Shown: positions 36,645 through 44,500 of the stretch, piece by piece
Layout of the letters: every line of letters starts with the position of its first letter
Numbering within the stretch: position 1 is the stretch's first letter
Assembly (NCBI RefSeq): GCF_029910655.1
Contig: NZ_CP123897.1
Coordinates: forward strand, 1,488,001-1,552,000
Origin: Methylomonas sp. UP202
Lineage (GTDB): Bacteria; Pseudomonadota; Gammaproteobacteria; Methylococcales; Methylomonadaceae
Length of the DNA: 64,000 bases
Reading direction: 5' to 3'
Notes under the pieces: model-generated
What the model saw: the letters and a program-made list of their open reading frames with translations, nothing else
Databases searched by the model: none
Told to the model about the DNA's origin: nothing
Program-made: the position numbers and the translations under genes

Positions 36645-36767
36645 GTTGGCGCGAATAAGCGAACCGAATGAAGATGTGCAAAAGAGCGTATTTTATAAAA
36701 ATGACAAATCAATGACATCGGCTGAAGTCAGCTGATTCAGACATTGGTCTATTCTCTAGTCGTTGAT

Positions 36768-37007
36768 TTATAAGTCTTTTACGTCAGTGCTCGTCCCGGG
36801 GCGAATAGGATTAAATCCTTCCTGCTTACCCACGGCCGTGGCGTGAACCGAATGGTCGTGGGTATCGACGAAATGGGCGCTTTGATTGCCGATTAAATCG
36901 GGATGGTTCAAATCAGCGGCTTGCCGGCCGACGGCGAATTGGCCGCTGGGCTCCAGTACCAAGACCTTGACGCCTTGTCCGCGATTGCCGTTTATTCCAA
37001 TACGCAA
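36768..37007 (-). pseudogene. Decayed fragment, possibly of a subtilase-like protein
   Basis: A 79-codon open frame without an ATG that overlaps the end of the di-heme gene by 16 bases. Its codon choice is gene-like, and the stretch VKVLVLEPSG..ADLNHPDLIGN..HFVDTHDHSVHATAVGKQ resembles the region of S8 subtilases spanning the Asp and His sites (cf. NHPDL and GHGTHVAG), but the key residues are altered. It is too short for an enzyme and ends at TAA 36768. It is best seen as a remnant; it could also be an unrelated small protein. Confidence 0.3.
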
Positions 37008-39223
37008 CTGCCCGTCGGCGTCAGGATCGCGTCGTTGGGGTCCAGGTCCAGGAAGGTGGGCAGCGGGTGGTGGGAGCCGCTCGCGCCGACCGCGCCGATT
37101 CTCGCCAGCGGTTGGTAGGGGCGGCCGTCGGTCGGCAGACGTAGTTCCGGATGATCGAACGGCGCTTTTTGGTAGCGTACGCGCTGGTCGGTCAACGACA
37201 CCAGAAAGGCGACCAGATCTTCCTCCTGACGGTCGGTCAAGCCCAACGGTTTGATGTTGGGGGCGAGGTCGGACGCATTGAAGTGGCAGAAGTTGCCGCC
37301 GCGATTGTAAAACTGCACCACTTGCCGTAAAGTCGCGACGCCGCCGTTATGAAAGTAGGGGCCGGTCAATTGGCTGTTGCGCAGGCCGGGGGTTTTGAAA
37401 GCGCCATCGACCGCCGCCCGTTTAAAGTCCCGGTTGAGGATTTCGTCGGGATCGCAGATCTGATTATGGTTGGCATCCGTGCAGACCGCGCTGTTGCCGT
37501 CTTCGCTCAGCGCTGGAATCGCATCGTTGCCCAGAATTGGGAACGGAATCGGGTCGGGTTTTCGCGGCTCGTCGGCCGGCAAGGCTTGATTGGCTTCGAA
37601 ATTTCGGCGTTGCATCAGCGCCTGACGAGCAAACGCCAGCGGCAGATTGGCATTGTCGGAGCCGCCTCGGCCCAAGTCGTCGGTGGTTGGCGTCACCGCG
37701 ATATTGTAGAAGCCGCTATCGTAAAGGGCGCTGCCGTCGGCCATAGTCATCGGCCGAATCAGGTTTTTACCCTGGTTGGCGGCGCGGATGGAGGCTTTGG
37801 TCAGTTCCGGACCGGCGTGGCATTGCACGCACTGGCCCTGGTTGACGAACAGATTCAAGCCGGCCAGTTCCTTGTCGCCGAAGCCTGCGTTAAAGCGGCC
37901 GGTTTCCATCCAGACGTCGAAATAACTGCGGTCGGCGACCAACGTCGATTCGTACAGCGACACCGCCAGCCCGAAAAACAGGCTGAAGTTGTATTCCATT
38001 TGGTTGAAGACGATGCCGGGCGCTTCGATGGCTTCGTCGGATTCCCAATATTGGTCGTTAAACGCGGCCTTGATCAAATCGGCGTAAGTCGTATCCAGGC
38101 CGCGATAGGGCGCCTTGGCGAGGCCGCCCAGCACCGAATCCTCGGGATGCACGACTTGCTGTCCCAGCGGCGTTAAGGGTTTGCCGGTCGCGGCGGATGC
38201 CGCCAACAGTTTTTTGCCGATTTCCGGAAAGCTGCGGCCGTTAGGCAGGCTGGGGTCGGTGGTTGATTTTTGACGCGGGTCGCCGAACGACATTTCCGCG
38301 AAGCTGACGGTCGGGTCCATCGCCTGCGACGCCAAACTGGCCTGGGCCAGGGAGATTTGTTCCAGGGCCAATCCGTCCGGCGTGTTGACGACGATGGCGG
38401 CGTTGGGATTTTGGTCGCCGAAACCGTCCTGGCCGTTGAAATGCGGATTGGCGCGGCCGTCCCAGAAGTTGCTGAAGTTGAACACCGCGTTGATCACCGA
38501 CGGCGCGTTGCGCGGGACCGAGCGGCGCACGTTCTTCTTGCCGAACAGGTTCCAGACCGGGTCCTGGACCGGCGTGCCGCTATCGACGGCGAGGCCGGGG
38601 TTTACGTGGTCGAAAAAGGTGTACAACATGCCCATCGAGCCGGCGATGTCGTTGCTGTTACCGGTGCTGGGATCGATGGCGCTATTGGCGCCTTGGACCA
38701 CGCTGTCGATGGTCTTGACGAACGGGAAGTCCTGGCGGGTTAACCTGGCGTTCGGGCCCTTGATTTCGAAATCGGCGGCATTGATTTTGTTTGCGTTGGC
38801 AAAACCGTCGATCGGATTGGTTTTGGCATTGGCTACCGCGAGAAAGCCGGGGTTGAGTTGATTTTTAGCGCGACTGTCGGCACCGGCGTGAAAATGGCAA
38901 CTGGCGCAGGCCTGCACGCCGTCGCTGCCGATTTGGCTGTCCCAGAACAGCGCCTTGCCCAGTTGTAGGGCCGCTTCGCGGTTCTTGACGAAGCGGTCCA
39001 GTCCTTCCGGCAGCGGCGCGCCGCCGTCTTGTCGCACGGCCAGACGCAAGGATTCCAAGCCGAACGAGCGAGCGTCGGCCGGCGCTTGCACGATGGTGGT
39101 ATTGGCGGAGACGCCGGCACCGGCCAGCAGGCCGGTTATCAAGGCGGTGTTCAGAAAAATCCTGGCGGCTCGGGAATGGGCGGCCGGTTCGATGGTGCGT
39201 GCGCTAAACAGGTGGCGGTACAT
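36992..39223 (-). CDS. Di-heme cytochrome c peroxidase / MauG-like protein
   Basis: A 743-residue exported protein (signal sequence about residues 20-40, FLNTALITGLLAGAGVSA). Two c-type heme sites are present: CASCH at residues 106-110 and CVQCH at about residue 460. Motifs such as RRSVPRNAPSVINAVFN and FWDGRANPHF belong to the bacterial di-heme peroxidase/MauG family. An EF-hand-like loop (DANHNQICDPDE) occurs near residue 590. The size is twice that of classic CcpA and nearer to surface-associated peroxidases of methanotrophs. It has a GAGGAC ribosome-binding site and lies downstream of a 30-residue peptide gene. It may reduce peroxide or oxidise a protein or peptide substrate. Confidence 0.85.
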   Translation of the reverse strand: MYRHLFSARTIEPAAHSRAARIFLNTALITGLLAGAGVSANTTIVQAPADARSFGLESLRLAVRQDGGAPLPEGLDRFVKNREAALQLGKALFWDSQIGSDGVQACASCHFHAGADSRAKNQLNPGFLAVANAKTNPIDGFANANKINAADFEIKGPNARLTRQDFPFVKTIDSVVQGANSAIDPSTGNSNDIAGSMGMLYTFFDHVNPGLAVDSGTPVQDPVWNLFGKKNVRRSVPRNAPSVINAVFNFSNFWDGRANPHFNGQDGFGDQNPNAAIVVNTPDGLALEQISLAQASLASQAMDPTVSFAEMSFGDPRQKSTTDPSLPNGRSFPEIGKKLLAASAATGKPLTPLGQQVVHPEDSVLGGLAKAPYRGLDTTYADLIKAAFNDQYWESDEAIEAPGIVFNQMEYNFSLFFGLAVSLYESTLVADRSYFDVWMETGRFNAGFGDKELAGLNLFVNQGQCVQCHAGPELTKASIRAANQGKNLIRPMTMADGSALYDSGFYNIAVTPTTDDLGRGGSDNANLPLAFARQALMQRRNFEANQALPADEPRKPDPIPFPILGNDAIPALSEDGNSAVCTDANHNQICDPDEILNRDFKRAAVDGAFKTPGLRNSQLTGPYFHNGGVATLRQVVQFYNRGGNFCHFNASDLAPNIKPLGLTDRQEEDLVAFLVSLTDQRVRYQKAPFDHPELRLPTDGRPYQPLARIGAVGASGSHHPLPTFLDLDPNDAILTPTGSCVLE

Positions 39224-39393
39224 GACAGTCCTCTTGATGTTTATTCGATCATGTCCCGGAATGCTTGGATCGCAACCCTTGCGAGACCGGGTTGCCGTGA
39301 CGAAGGATGGCTTGCAATCTCGCCGTTGATTCCGCGGTTTGGGTTTGGAGAAACCGGTCCGGGCGTTATTAGTTTTTCAAAATAAGGTTGGCG

Positions 39394-39412
39394 CGGCCGG
39401 CTGGTGGCCGGC
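39394..39412 (-). repeat. GC-rich hairpin between peptide gene and di-heme gene
   Basis: Inverted repeat GCCGGC...GCCGGC around a short loop on the minus strand, about 50 bases after the peptide stop and 170 bases before the di-heme gene. Only a loose T-rich stretch follows, so it could be a partial terminator or an RNA processing site that sets different peptide and enzyme levels. Confidence 0.4.
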
Positions 39413-39457
39413 AGAGCCAAGAAGCGAGGGACGTCCTTTTCCCTCTGGGGTTTTGGC

Positions 39458-39550
39458 TTAGGCCAGTACGATGCCGCCGCTGCAACGGCCGCCGACTGAA
39501 CTGCCCAATTTGACAGCCAAACCAGCACGAATGTTGGATTTTACTTTCAT
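39458..39550 (-). CDS. 30-residue peptide, possible modified-peptide (RiPP-like) precursor
   Basis: Minus-strand ATG at 39548-39550 preceded by AGAGGAG with six bases of spacing, the best ribosome-binding site in the region, and ending TAA at 39458. The product starts MKVKSNIRAG, a basic start seen in short bacterial precursor peptides, then has a Gly/Ser-rich middle and ends GGRCSGGIVLA with one cysteine. Its size and leader-core look suggest a ribosomally made, modified peptide. Neighbours are a di-heme MauG-like enzyme gene downstream and a 619-residue protein of unknown function upstream. The longer frame extending upstream of the ATG (to 39769) looks non-coding. Family not identified. 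Confidence 0.55.
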   Translation of the reverse strand: MKVKSNIRAGLAVKLGSSVGGRCSGGIVLA

Positions 39551-39991
39551 GACACTCTCCTCTTTATACCCGTGCCCATCGCACGTCGATTCGCCGGCCC
39601 CATGCCGACTGATCCGGTTCGAGTTTGACCGCCCGCGATCCGCTACACCGGCGCGGTCCGACCATCCTCTAAATTCAAAATCGCTGGCGCCACACCGGAA
39701 TAAGGTTGACGCACCGTTAAACCATTCGGCCAGATCGTCCGGCCGATCCGCCCGCGCGTCCGGCCCCAACTCGATAGGCCGGCCCGAAAGGCTATGTTCG
39801 CGTTAATCGTCGCCGCCGCCCCGGTATCGATCGCTCAGGCCCGGTAGCCGCGGATGGCGATGGCTAAGCGTCCTGCCGGCCGAGTTCAGGCGAACGATGC
39901 CCGAGGCGACGGTCGCGCATCCCTGCCGTGATTAACGCGAACATAATCGTTAGAGGCGCTCGGCCATCCCTAGCCGAGGCCGCGTGCCGGG
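39551..39991. repeat. Intergenic region with a perfect 16-bp inverted repeat
   Basis: The 441 bases between the 619-residue gene and the peptide gene hold no other supported gene. TATGTTCGCGTTAATC at 39793-39808 is the exact reverse complement of GATTAACGCGAACATA at 39930-39945, separated by 121 bases. Such arms could bound a small mobile insert, form a cruciform, or be paired binding sites for a regulator of the peptide. Confidence 0.6.
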
Positions 39992-41851
39992 CTAGCCGTG
40001 CTCGCGAATGTCGATGTTGCTCTTGGTCACCCGTATCTCAACGTGGAACAATTGCTCGAAGACTTCGCCGATGTGCGGAATACGCTGGACTTCGCCGAGC
40101 AGCAGGTTGTAGATATTCAAATCCGCCGCCGAGAATTCGCGCTCGGGTTGCGGGCGGCCGAACAGCCGATTGATCGCTTGCTGGGTTTGTTCGGCGGCGG
40201 CCAAAATGCCTTGCTCGCGGCGGAAATATTTCATCAAGCAGCGAATCAAGCGCTCGAACGCCGCTGCTTCGTAGGCCGGTCGGCCGAATTGCGTACTCAA
40301 GATGCCGCGCAATTGCGCCTCGGCGATCCGGTGATAGGCGCTAAGCGCCGGCGGCGCGATGCGTTCGGCCAAGCTGTCGGCATTCGCCGTCAGTCCCAAA
40401 CCTTCGCAGGTTTTTTGATACATGTCGGCGTAGACCTTTTCCCGATCGGCCCGCCATGCTTCGCTAGCGATCAGCGATTTGGATTGCAACTGTTTGATCT
40501 GAGTTTGCACTAGCGCCTTGAACGCGTTAAATCGCTCGGAATCGACGTTCGGCCAGGTATCCAAAATCGTCCACAGATCTTCGTAATGGCGGCTCATCAG
40601 CGGCCATACCGAGAAAGCGATGGCGTGGGCCTGCAAGCCGTACAGACCGTAATCCAACGCCGCCGGCAATGCGTCCAGCGCGGCCGCGACCTCAGGGGCT
40701 TGCGGAACGTCGTCCATGCCAGCCAGCGTCGTGCCGTCGACCAGCACGCCCAAAAATTCTTCGATCATCTTGCGCGGTCCGGCGCAAACGCCGTGCGCGG
40801 ATTGAAACACGTAGTTGCGTTCGGCGTAGTCGTAAATGCCTTGGGCGGTCATCGGCGCGTCGGGGGCCAGCGTGGTTTCGACGACCGGTAGGAACAGCAT
40901 TTGATGGGTGGTCATCCGCACACCGTCGGTGACGCGGTACATCGATGACAACACCGGATGCAACTCGCCGTTCGCGACGCGGGGCGCGGTTTTCATCAGT
41001 TGGTAGGCCGGAACCGCCAGCACCAGCGCCGATAATCGCTCCAAATGACCGACGGTCCAGCCGGCGCGGGCTTCCGGAAAACGCCGCAGATAGGCTTCGC
41101 GGATTTGCAGCAAGGCGGCCATCGCCGGCAACCAATGCTGGCCCATGCTTTTCAGCGCGGTCAAATTCATCGGCCGCTCGTTTTGGTAGCGGCTGCCGGG
41201 GTAGGGGCAGGTCGTCCATTCGGTCGGCACTTCGACGCGCAACGGTTTCGGGAAGACGTTGGATTCGCCGACCTGGCGACCTTCGTTATCCATCGCGATA
41301 TGAGCCACCCGAAATACCGGGATCATCAATTCCAGATAGCCCAATTCCACCGGCCGGCCGGTCAGTTCGGCCATGATGGCCTCGCATTCGAACCAAGTGC
41401 GCGGCGATTGACCGGGAGCCGTTGGTAGTAGGTGGTTGGCGCCGGTTTGCGCCATTTTAGGGGCGGGTGCCGGGTTGGTGGTTTGCAGGATGCCTTGTAG
41501 AATCAACTCTTCGAGCAGATCCTTAACCACCGGCCAATCGTAGCCCTGGCCCCAACCGGTGGCGCTTATGGCTGGAAAGCTGGCTTGCTTGGCCAGGTTT
41601 TCGCCGAATGCGAACAACTCGGGTTCGTCGAAGCTGATTTCCTTGTCTTCGTAATACAGGCGTAGTTCGGTGGCGCCGGTCTCGTTTGTGACGTATTGGG
41701 CGATCGTGCGTTTATGCATCGGCAGAAACAGCCAATCGTCCTGGCTCAGTTCCGCCAGTTCCGGCGTTTCGGTCAAGTCGGCGTGAAACGGGCAGCCGCC
41801 GCTGTGTTGGGTGTCGTCGGTTCGAGACCTTTCCAAAATCGGCTGGCTCAT
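39992..41851 (-). CDS. Unrecognised 619-residue protein of the peptide/di-heme cluster
   Basis: A long soluble-looking protein with no signal peptide and no membrane segment. Residues 18-23 read GGCPFH, a Cys-Pro motif of the kind used for heme binding. Around residues 60-120 a segment of beta-like then helical sequence (YYEDKEISFDEPELFAFG, then YDWPVVKDLLEELILQGIL) recalls the winged-helix PqqD/RiPP recognition fold, by eye only. The remainder is helical, with repeated Tyr/Trp/His-rich stretches (FSVWPLMSRHYEDLWTILD; AYHRIAEAQLRGILS). No known family came to mind. Being upstream of the peptide gene on the same strand, it may process, bind or regulate the peptide. Confidence 0.6.
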   Translation of the reverse strand: MSQPILERSRTDDTQHSGGCPFHADLTETPELAELSQDDWLFLPMHKRTIAQYVTNETGATELRLYYEDKEISFDEPELFAFGENLAKQASFPAISATGWGQGYDWPVVKDLLEELILQGILQTTNPAPAPKMAQTGANHLLPTAPGQSPRTWFECEAIMAELTGRPVELGYLELMIPVFRVAHIAMDNEGRQVGESNVFPKPLRVEVPTEWTTCPYPGSRYQNERPMNLTALKSMGQHWLPAMAALLQIREAYLRRFPEARAGWTVGHLERLSALVLAVPAYQLMKTAPRVANGELHPVLSSMYRVTDGVRMTTHQMLFLPVVETTLAPDAPMTAQGIYDYAERNYVFQSAHGVCAGPRKMIEEFLGVLVDGTTLAGMDDVPQAPEVAAALDALPAALDYGLYGLQAHAIAFSVWPLMSRHYEDLWTILDTWPNVDSERFNAFKALVQTQIKQLQSKSLIASEAWRADREKVYADMYQKTCEGLGLTANADSLAERIAPPALSAYHRIAEAQLRGILSTQFGRPAYEAAAFERLIRCLMKYFRREQGILAAAEQTQQAINRLFGRPQPEREFSAADLNIYNLLLGEVQRIPHIGEVFEQLFHVEIRVTKSNIDIREHG

Positions 41852-42367
41852 CGCGCATGTCTCCGGAATGGGTTGAGTTCGAATGGCACGCTTGGCAACG
41901 ACGCGCCGGCTCTAAGGACTGGAATCCCGTGCCGCCGGTCATTTCTACTGATATCCGCAACCGTGTCGGCGTGATGAAACAATAAATCCAGCGCCGGTTG
42001 GTGTCTGTGAATAACGGCATCGGCGCGTTGCGAGATAACTCACTTGACACCGGAAAGTGGGCGTACAGTGTTCGTCAGACCGTGTGGCGTAAGTCGTTCC
42101 ACTGCTTTGCGTAGCTCGAGGGGGAGGCGACTGCTTGGGTGTGGTGAAACTGGTTCGGATCAACCAATTGCGCCGGTTGAAATCAACCAAAAGTTTCACT
42201 GGAGCGTCGATTACGCGCACGACGATGGTGCGGTCGCTTGTTTTGTAAGGGTGTTGGCGCGATTGGCTCGGGTATTGCCTGAGCGCATCTGTCGTAACAC
42301 AAGATCGGCGAGGTGTGGCAATGAGCGATTCGGTAGCGAATCCGGCTGAAAACGGAGAGATAGCCTC
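41852..42367. other. Divergent intergenic region, no gene
   Basis: About 516 bases between the start of the 619-residue gene (minus) and the start of the Hyf-like operon (plus). Short open frames here have no ribosome-binding sites. ATCAACCAATTGCGCCGGTTGA near 42157 contains a short inverted repeat (CAACC/GGTTG). The region probably carries both promoters. GGAGAG precedes the ATG at 42368. Confidence 0.45.
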
Positions 42368-44500
42368 ATGGTGTTGATATTGGCCTATGCCGCGGTGCTG
42401 TTGAGTTTTGCGTCCGGGCTGCTGGCGCTGCTGGTCAACCGCCGCGCCGGTTTGCTTCGGCTAGGCCACGCCGCGTTCCGGCGTTGGCCGGCCGGCAGGC
42501 GATGTTGGACTAGCGCCGATGCCTGGCTGGAAGAAAGCCGATACGCGGCGTTACTGAAAACCACGGTATTCAGGTTGCTGGGTGCGGCGGGCGTCGCCGC
42601 GATTCTGGCCGGTTTGTGGGTGCTGTTGGGTCAAACCTCGGTGGTCACCGACCGAATTGGCTTGGGCTTGCCGTGGTTGCCTTGGCATGTACGTTTCGAC
42701 GGTCTGTCCGGTTTCTTCTACTTGATAATCGGCATCGCCGTTGGCGCGGTCAGCCTGTACGGGCCGGGTTATGTGGCGGCGTATCAAGAAGAAAAACATC
42801 CGTTCGCGGTGTTGGGCTTGTTCACCGGTCTGTTCGTTGCCGGTATGTTGTTGGTTCTACTGGCGGACGACGCCTTCTTTTTCATGATCGCCTGGGAGCT
42901 GATGTCGGTCGCCAGTTATTTCCTGGTGGCGTTTCAGCACGAACACCCGGCCAACCGCCGCGCCGCTTTTCTGTATTTGCTGATGGCCGAGGTCGGCGCG
43001 CTCGCCATCATTCTGGGATTTGGGGTGTTGGCGGCCTTTACCGACGGCTTTACCTTCGACGCCTTGCGTCAAGCGCAACTGTCCTCGAATTGGGCGACCT
43101 TGGCTTTCGTGCTGGCCTTGTTGGGTTTCGGCATGAAGGCCGGCATCGTGCCGATTCATGTTTGGTTGCCGGAAGCGCATCCGGTCGCGCCGTCGCATAT
43201 TTCCGCGCTGATGAGCGGCGTCATGCTGAAGGTGGCCGTCTACGGACTGATCCGGTTTTGCTTCGATTTGCTGGGCGACGTGCATTGGCAATGGGGCGTC
43301 GTGCTGTTGGTGCTGGGCACGTTCTCGGCCTTGGGCGGCATTCTGTACGCGATGATGCAGCCTAACCTGAAACGCCTGCTGGCGTACAGTTCGGTGGAAA
43401 ACATCGGCATTATCTTCATGGTGCTGGGCTTGGCGGTGATCTTCATGGCCAACGGCTTTCCGCAGCTGGCGGCCTTGGGCTTATTGGCGGCCTTATTTCA
43501 CGCCTTCAATCATGCCTTGTTCAAAAACCTGCTGTTTTTAGGGGCCGGCATACTGCAGCATCAGGTTCACGATTTGAATATCGATACGATGGGCGGGCTG
43601 ATCCAACGCTTGCCCAAGACCAGTTTCCTGTTCCTGATTGGCTGCATGAGTATCTCGTCGTTGCCGCTGTTCAACGGCTTTGTGTCGGAGTGGCTGGCCT
43701 TCCAGACCGCGCTGCAGGTGGACGCGCTAGACAACGGCGTGCTGCGCAGTCTGATACCGGTGTCGGCGGCGGCCCTGGCCTTGACCGCGGCCTTGGCGGC
43801 GGCTTGCTTCGTCAAAGTGTTCGGCATGATTTTCCTGGGGTTGCCGCGTTCGCGCAACGCCGAAAAAGCCCAGGAAGTGGACGATCGCGGCATGCTGTTG
43901 GCCTTGAAATTGTTGGCTGGCTTGTGCTTTTTCTTCGGGATTTTTCCGGCTTTCATCATCGACTTACTCAATCAGGTGGCCAGGCAATTGTTGGGTCAAG
44001 CCTTGCCCAACGATACCGCGTTGAGCTGGTTGCGACTGGCGCCGGTGTCGCATCAACAGGCATCCTATGCGCCGCTGTTGGTGTTGATCAGCGTTTTGTT
44101 GGCGGCCGGCGCGGCGTTCCGGTATCTGCGGCTCAATCCGGAAACTAAAACGATGCGCCGCGCGCCGGCTTGGGATTGCGGATTCGGCGGTTTGAACGCG
44201 CGCATGCAATACAGTTGCAGCGCGTTTACGATGCCGTTCCGGCGCATTTTCGCCAAGGTCTGGTTGATCGACGAGCAAATCGACAAAGACCTGCACGGTG
44301 CCGGGGACATCGAGGTCGCGGCGATTCATTACCGCCTGCAAGTGCAGGATCACAGCTGGCCCAGGCTCTATCTACCCATAGCCCATGCCATCAATCAACT
44401 GGCCAGGCTGGTCGGCCGCATCCAGACCGGTAATATCCGGGTTTATCTCGGTTATTCGTTTGCCACGTTAATTCTGATGTTGTGGGTGGTCAGCCTATGA
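42368..44500 (+). CDS. hyfB: Hydrogenase-4/complex I-like proton-translocating subunit B (NuoL-like)
   Basis: A 710-residue membrane protein with about 15 helices, homologous to NuoL/HyfB/HycC antiporter-like subunits. Conserved elements: FFMIAWELMSVASYFLV (with the Glu on the fifth helix), AGIVPIHVWLPEAHPVAPSH and the lysine-bearing MQPNLKRLLAYSSVENIGII. It opens a six-gene operon in which every stop overlaps the next start. It would move protons across the inner membrane, driven by the electron-transferring subunits. The C-terminal 120 residues include RAPAWDCGFGG as in HyfB. Confidence 0.9.
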   Translation: MVLILAYAAVLLSFASGLLALLVNRRAGLLRLGHAAFRRWPAGRRCWTSADAWLEESRYAALLKTTVFRLLGAAGVAAILAGLWVLLGQTSVVTDRIGLGLPWLPWHVRFDGLSGFFYLIIGIAVGAVSLYGPGYVAAYQEEKHPFAVLGLFTGLFVAGMLLVLLADDAFFFMIAWELMSVASYFLVAFQHEHPANRRAAFLYLLMAEVGALAIILGFGVLAAFTDGFTFDALRQAQLSSNWATLAFVLALLGFGMKAGIVPIHVWLPEAHPVAPSHISALMSGVMLKVAVYGLIRFCFDLLGDVHWQWGVVLLVLGTFSALGGILYAMMQPNLKRLLAYSSVENIGIIFMVLGLAVIFMANGFPQLAALGLLAALFHAFNHALFKNLLFLGAGILQHQVHDLNIDTMGGLIQRLPKTSFLFLIGCMSISSLPLFNGFVSEWLAFQTALQVDALDNGVLRSLIPVSAAALALTAALAAACFVKVFGMIFLGLPRSRNAEKAQEVDDRGMLLALKLLAGLCFFFGIFPAFIIDLLNQVARQLLGQALPNDTALSWLRLAPVSHQQASYAPLLVLISVLLAAGAAFRYLRLNPETKTMRRAPAWDCGFGGLNARMQYSCSAFTMPFRRIFAKVWLIDEQIDKDLHGAGDIEVAAIHYRLQVQDHSWPRLYLPIAHAINQLARLVGRIQTGNIRVYLGYSFATLILMLWVVSL

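Follow-up and report, generated by a model that had tools for sequence, protein, structure and literature searches.

A small gene set for a short Arg-Cys peptide, probably modified and exported, in Methylomonas sp. UP202 and scattered other bacteria

A small gene set of the methane-eating bacterium Methylomonas sp. UP202 probably serves to make, chemically alter and export a tiny peptide with a conserved Arg-Cys motif, and related sets are scattered in other bacteria. It lies in what we call the window, the whole stretch of 64,000 nucleotides analysed here, and consists of genes for a protein of no known family (P0002), a precursor peptide and a MauG-like di-haem protein (P0001). We read the set as an undescribed RiPP-type pathway, in which P0002 would modify the peptide core, a C39 transporter would cut and export it, and the di-haem protein would act later, in one subclade; this reading seems to us rather likely. 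The literature search, which left most subscription papers and preprints outside, found no description of such a peptide/enzyme system and no match for the peptide leader strings, and the novelty of the system is provisional.

Gene arrangement in the window

The preliminary description had placed on the minus strand, in this order, a protein of no recognised family, a short peptide and a MauG/cytochrome c peroxidase-like di-haem protein. The layout is borne out at every point (Table 1): profile searches gave P0002 no Pfam or NCBIfam assignment, and P0001 matched the CCP_MauG family PF03150 at 4.9e-18 (66.6 bits for a cut-off of 25.6), which puts it in that superfamily.

Table 1. Positions in the window of the genes of the set and of their principal features
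Feature	Position	Strand	Basis
P0002, 619 aa, outside known families, proposed to mature the peptide in the cytoplasm	39992..41851	-	ORF; Pfam and NCBIfam searches
Ribosome-binding-like AGAGGAGAG, just upstream of the peptide ATG	39555..39563	-	Read from the sequence
Precursor peptide, 30 aa, MKVKSNIRAGLAVKLGSSVGGRCSGGIVLA	39458..39550	-	ORF; relatives
Leader, 10 residues, MKVKSNIRAG, proposed C39 cleavage after Ala-Gly	39521..39550	-	Conservation in 33 peptides, favoured by the search motif
Core, 20 residues, LAVKLGSSVGGRCSGGIVLA, with Arg-Cys motif	39461..39520	-	33-peptide compilation
P0001, 743 aa, MauG-like di-haem c-type protein, N-terminal hydrophobic segment	36992..39223	-	ORF; profile searches; tree
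P0001 first haem-binding motif CASCH, residues 106-110	38894..38908	-	Alignment
P0001 second haem-binding motif CVQCH, residues 465-469	37817..37831	-	Alignment
P0001 Tyr639, aligned with MauG chain position 294	37307..37309	-	Alignment of 602-642 on 257-297, equal offset at both ends

The window is very close to Methylomonas koyamae: P0002 is 99% identical in strain R-45383, and the peptide genes differ by one synonymous and no non-synonymous codon, too few to weigh. Between P0002 and the peptide lies a 29-nt imperfect inverted repeat (39780-39808 and 39930-39958), the inner 16 bases of which are kept in R-45383. A transposable element was considered for this stretch and rejected, as it is single-copy in its own genome, is present in R-45383 as well and is not a repeat family. 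Scanning 36700-42400 for promoters and terminators gave nothing usable, with one promoter-like site (1.9 in shuffles) and 13 terminator-like sites (7.7 in shuffles). Upstream of P0002, and divergent from it, is a membrane-protein gene resembling hydrogenase-4 subunit B (42368-44500; NF005086, 804 bits), with further membrane-protein ORFs beyond.

A nearly fixed leader and a variable Arg-Cys core

The peptide is without a family in Pfam (E up to 1) or NCBIfam (E up to 10). Its frame had been required beforehand to recur in other genomes, and it does: the DNA pattern of the leader is found in 10 of 311 genomes of the order, namely all nine that carry full-length P0002 plus one other (G263), and in 0 of 311 when the pattern is reversed. 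Judged by these sequences, the peptide ORF is not a product of chance.

We compiled 33 peptides from 22 loci, leaving out same or near-same genomes (L011, L024, L027, the short copies L028-L035, L048 and L050-L058). All are short (19-58 residues) and begin with a nearly fixed, MKVKTNVRAG-like leader of ten residues, with Gly at position 10 in all 33, Ala at position 9 in 32, and V, I or L four residues from the end. This conservation arises partly by construction, because the peptides were found with a motif that favours it. The core that follows varies in length and composition, so that the family has the short precursor, conserved leader and variable core of a RiPP, and the compilation upholds the peptide as a conserved product in its own right.

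What the cores share is a cysteine next to an arginine. Cys occurs in 30 of the 33 cores (a single one in 29, two in one), and in 29 of these 30 it adjoins Arg; when the cores were shuffled 2000 times, this count averaged 5.8 and never exceeded 15. Only L010 departs from the rule, its Cys having no Arg beside it. In two peptides with the same leader, L019 11923 and L022 11907, the core is GRCSG and then a stretch of over 25 consecutive Gly, and three others (L021 9733, L129 13675 and L129 13838) are His-rich and Cys-free (HGADD...H). Tyr is found in 13 of the 33 cores.

That the exported peptide binds metal, as a metallophore or in copper handling, with the di-haem enzyme helping to build the ligand as proposed for SACCP/MopE and CorB/CorA, is to our mind somewhat unlikely. 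Among the points that speak for it, the three Cys-free cores are the His-rich ones, and the nearest described di-haem relatives of P0001 are, we believe, the copper-linked SACCP/CorB group. In published accounts, SACCP and CorB are MauG-resembling di-haem proteins of methanotrophs, situated at the surface or in the periplasm and proposed to oxidise a partner (PMC3621798, PMC3912023). Genes for TonB-dependent receptors, moreover, lie in four neighbourhoods (L016, L025, G260 by Pfam, and G263, whose receptor is 54% identical to that of G260 and has FecR beside it), and hint at metal uptake in some lineages. The typical core, however, contains a single Cys, and neither His nor Trp is conserved in it; blastp with three of these receptors found relatives at only two of 21 loci (L016 and L025) and none in the window.

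P0002 and its association with the peptide

P0002 is rare. It was found in one of 185 genomes sampled across the class (that of the window itself), in 3 of 61 relatives (own genome included) and in 13 of 311 genomes of the order, nine of them with full-length matches and four with the middle part only. A pattern scan over one genome for each of 84,980 species gave at least 21 P0002 loci, three of which (L011, L024 and L027) coincide or nearly coincide with genomes already in the order set. These are the 21 loci referred to here as scan loci; they are spread over Methylococcales, Beta- and Alphaproteobacteria, Steroidobacter and Nitrospira. Viral contigs held no relative of P0002, and plasmids a single weak and partial match, in Burkholderia arboris, covering 31% of the query.

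The peptide closely accompanies P0002. A same-leader peptide is present in 19 of the 21 scan loci, and in the two misses (L012 and L018) the sequence breaks off with the contig. No such peptide came from the six short loci (L036-L041) that have distant relatives of the middle domain and nothing more of P0002. Within the order, the nine P0002 genomes all fall among the ten with the leader pattern (n=311; hypergeometric 1.5e-16, kinship ignored). The peptide also occurs without any P0002 match, in three genomes of the order (G263, G260 and G338). In G263 and G260, both of one genus, Arg-Cys peptides stand with an exporter, there is no P0002 in the genome and no di-haem relative is found at E 1e-80, which means that the Arg-Cys motif needs neither enzyme and that neither is universal. 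At the G260 locus (L130, 7154-15743), transposase-like genes, identified by eye, separate the HlyD gene, which has two Arg-Cys peptides on its side, from the C39-ABC gene, which has one.

P0002 fell in no known family: Pfam offered none at E up to 1, with only scattered weak matches for the middle domain, NCBIfam offered none at E up to 10, and a PDB profile search gave six matches at E 0.16-0.52, which we judge to be chance. By eye the protein has no secretion signal. Its middle part (residues ~180-420) is shared with proteins of 400-480 aa in Methylococcales and Burkholderia arboris, and the neighbours of these stand-alone relatives (L042-L047 and L004) resemble PKS, Rieske or NRPS genes by eye, Pfam identifying among them a methyltransferase, a JmjC/cupin protein and a metallo-beta-lactamase-fold protein. 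P0002 would thus fit an enzyme of secondary metabolism that has been joined to a peptide pathway. A methyltransferase is also found near P0002 and the peptide in two loci, L015 (9301-10599) and L026 (7245-8438); L026 has a subtilase as well, and no ABC exporter of the type described below in its 13 kb.

Thirteen aligned middle domains share the invariant residues D188, R192, E196, N229, W240, G310, E344, C356 and M362. H184 and H298 are invariant in 20 close relatives of P0002. A haem-dioxygenase-like fold (TDO/IDO/PrnB), considered for this domain, was set aside, as the thirteen sequences have no invariant His, which speaks against a conserved His haem ligand across the whole superfamily. An RRE (PqqD-like) leader-binding domain is common, though not universal, in RiPP pathways. 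One had been suggested by eye at the N-terminus of P0002 and was likewise dropped (hhalign probability 0.07%, P 0.58), in what was a weak test: residues 30-135, 20 rows against 30 PqqD sequences of one family, Neff 2.7.

Exporter genes

Most clusters have beside them genes for an HlyD protein, a C39-peptidase ABC transporter and a second ABC protein, accompanied in some loci by a TolC-type outer-membrane protein. Of the 21 scan loci, 17 have HlyD relatives and 16 have C39-ABC relatives, whereas the stretches examined of L008, L011, L024 and L026 contain none of these exporter genes. A C39-ABC profile run over the 311 genomes of the order (E 1e-120 or better) picked out eleven: seven of the nine P0002 genomes; G263, G260 and G338, in all of which same-leader peptides adjoin the exporter; and, as a partial match, G394, where the contig starts inside the exporter gene and 12 kb of it hold no peptide. 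The two P0002 genomes without a match, G220 and G452 (73% complete), do have the peptide. In the window's own genome the exporter operon stands in trans, at 2.653-2.660 Mb of contig C1, about 1.1 Mb away and with no second peptide, and in G374 it is likewise on another contig. The set of three genes first described is therefore incomplete, since a dedicated exporter belongs with most P0002 genomes and also with peptides that lack P0002.

At L005 the exporter proteins have the Pfam domains C39 (PF03412, 5.2e-19), ABC_tran and HlyD_3. Q20, C26, H106 and D122 of the C39 domain, which we take to be its catalytic residues, are invariant in eight sequences, so that the proteins have the make-up of a C39-peptidase export system. 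C39 peptidases follow a double-glycine rule, by which the cut would fall after the Ala-Gly of the leader.

The peptide might instead leave the cell unmodified, as a pheromone or bacteriocin, with P0002 and the di-haem protein engaged in sensing, in immunity or in some unrelated task. The genomes G263 and G260, with peptide and exporter and neither enzyme, are what one would expect if so, and some loci also contain genes that cluster by likeness with histidine kinases and response regulators (one kinase, at L009, is confirmed by Pfam), a hint of signalling. We nevertheless think it unlikely: the pairing of P0002 with the peptide in nine of nine genomes and the Arg-Cys motif in 29 of 30 Cys-bearing cores suggest chemistry on the core, and the middle domain of P0002 stands elsewhere beside PKS/NRPS-like genes (by eye), as expected of a biosynthetic enzyme.

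The di-haem protein P0001 and its subclade

Two CXXCH motifs are present in all eight cluster di-haem proteins. P0001 also has a Tyr where MauG has one: Tyr639 aligns with MauG chain position 294, and Tyr is kept there in 8/8 cluster and 14/14 generic proteins. In MauG this residue is the distal haem ligand, for which peroxidases have Met, and P0001 is of the MauG type at this place. The N-terminus of P0001 looks like a Sec signal by eye.

P0001 is ~38-41% identical to 14 generic relatives of ~700-830 aa in the order, which we assume to be the SACCP/CorB group. In a 23-protein tree, which includes a very long branch for G338, the eight cluster proteins form one clade (100/100) on a long stem, apart from these 14. 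Three cysteines, Cys590, Cys646 and Cys740, are found in all eight and in at most one of the 14, and Cys581 is common to the cluster proteins and 13 of the 14. A profile of the di-haem protein exceeds 1000 bits in exactly six of the 311 genomes, all with P0002, the next score being 451 bits. Co-occurrence of P0002 and the di-haem enzyme had been required beforehand, and they do co-occur, in six of nine P0002 genomes; the three genes go together, with the di-haem clade absent from the other three P0002 genomes. In a P0002 tree with 20 rows, a branch (95/93) divides off the seven that have the di-haem gene, and one change accounts for its presence.

The gene also goes with a type of core. Nineteen loci could be judged, two truncated ones being left out, and were sorted by eye after the data had been seen. 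Seven with the di-haem gene (L007, L008, L010, L016, L020, L024 and L027) carry cores that are short and fairly hydrophobic, LAVKLGSSVGGRCSGGIVLA and LQAKLVSGGFCRGPVIA among them; the twelve without it have Ser-rich cores mostly ending SRC(V/A/L)G(I/L/A), poly-Gly cores or others. One of the twelve, L009, has only ~750 bases downstream, and the gene may lie further on. Because the di-haem loci form one clade, a single event may lie behind the match of enzyme and core type, and a formal statistic for that match makes it look stronger than it is. A second pairing of a di-haem enzyme with the peptide, without P0002, occurs in G338 (L129, 3695-7003), where the peptide MKVKTSLKAGRAYRCVSEA precedes an SBBP beta-propeller-like protein and a MauG-like di-haem protein of another kind, after which comes the exporter.

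It is improbable, in our estimate, that the di-haem gene is a mere bystander, a downstream paralogue of a family common in methylotrophs: relatives are indeed frequent (118 of 311 genomes at E 1e-80 or better, the clade itself included) and the clade is missing from three of nine P0002 genomes, but within the order this separate clade (100/100) occurs only with P0002 (6/6), it stands beside P0002 in Steroidobacter and Nitrospira as well (loci found via P0002, and so no independent test), and in G338 a further MauG-like gene goes with a peptide from this family.

Comparison with known systems

The precedents invoked in the preliminary description, MauG and MbnH, oxidise Trp in a partner protein, to TTQ or kynurenine, and the sequences do not support carrying them over. 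None of the 33 cores contains Trp, and TTQ or kynurenine chemistry on the peptide, considered as a candidate, is therefore unlikely; Tyr is present in only three of the nine di-haem-linked cores. P0001 resembles MauG and MbnH in its two CXXCH motifs and in the aligned Tyr, and differs in length (743 aa against a MauG chain of 373 aa) and in having a candidate substrate without Trp. It also falls far below the NCBIfam cut-offs for both, at 100.1 against 362.85 bits for MbnH (TIGR04039) and 79.2 against 443.85 for MauG (TIGR03791).

With SACCP and CorB, whose partners are MopE and CorA, P0001 shares the description of a MauG-like di-haem protein. If the generic relatives are that group, as assumed, P0001 stands apart from it, in a clade of its own that has three further conserved Cys. 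The partner differs too: theirs is a surface protein with a Trp-derived kynurenine, while the candidate here is a short exported peptide without Trp.

The exporter has the same gene set and domains as NHLP/NHLM exporters (C39-ABC, HlyD and second ABC), yet the L005 proteins remain under the cut-offs of those families (TIGR03796, 147.3 against 853.3 bits; TIGR03797, 99.7 against 709.4; TIGR03794, 34.2 against 156.2). NHLP leaders are long, in contrast to the ten residues found here. Methanobactins are likewise short ribosomal peptides of methanotrophs, and some of their operons have an MbnP/MbnH di-haem pair (PMC3621798); the present peptides are set apart from them by a different leader and by having, as a rule, a single Cys that adjoins Arg.

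A model of the pathway

What the sequences themselves show is the co-occurrence of the genes, the division of the peptide into leader and core, the presence of exporter genes and the di-haem motifs. In the order of events that we infer, together with its chemical steps and its cleavage site, the ribosome would make a peptide with a nearly fixed leader ending in Ala-Gly and a variable core with Cys beside Arg. P0002 would act on it in the cytoplasm, most likely at the Arg-Cys core, and the exporter formed by HlyD, the C39-peptidase ABC and the second ABC protein would then cut after Ala-Gly and export the core. The window belongs to the one subclade in which a secreted, MauG-like di-haem enzyme would act on the exported core, most likely oxidising the Cys or a position next to it. 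Modification of the peptide by any enzyme is itself something that we infer. In its boldest form, which we put forward only tentatively and would not bet on, the pathway would be a new RiPP class, with P0002 as a new maturase superfamily working on the Arg-Cys motif and P0001 as the first MauG-type di-haem enzyme, as far as searched, to act on a short exported peptide, at Cys or Arg and not at Trp.

Significance

P0002 has no family, is tied to a single peptide family and shares its middle domain with proteins of biosynthetic-looking loci, and it may therefore bring new peptide chemistry. The di-haem/peptide idea can be tested directly because the substrate is so small; if it is true, the known roles of MauG-like enzymes would be extended to an exported partner of 20 residues that lacks Trp. 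Some methanotrophs would then have a peptide system besides methanobactin.
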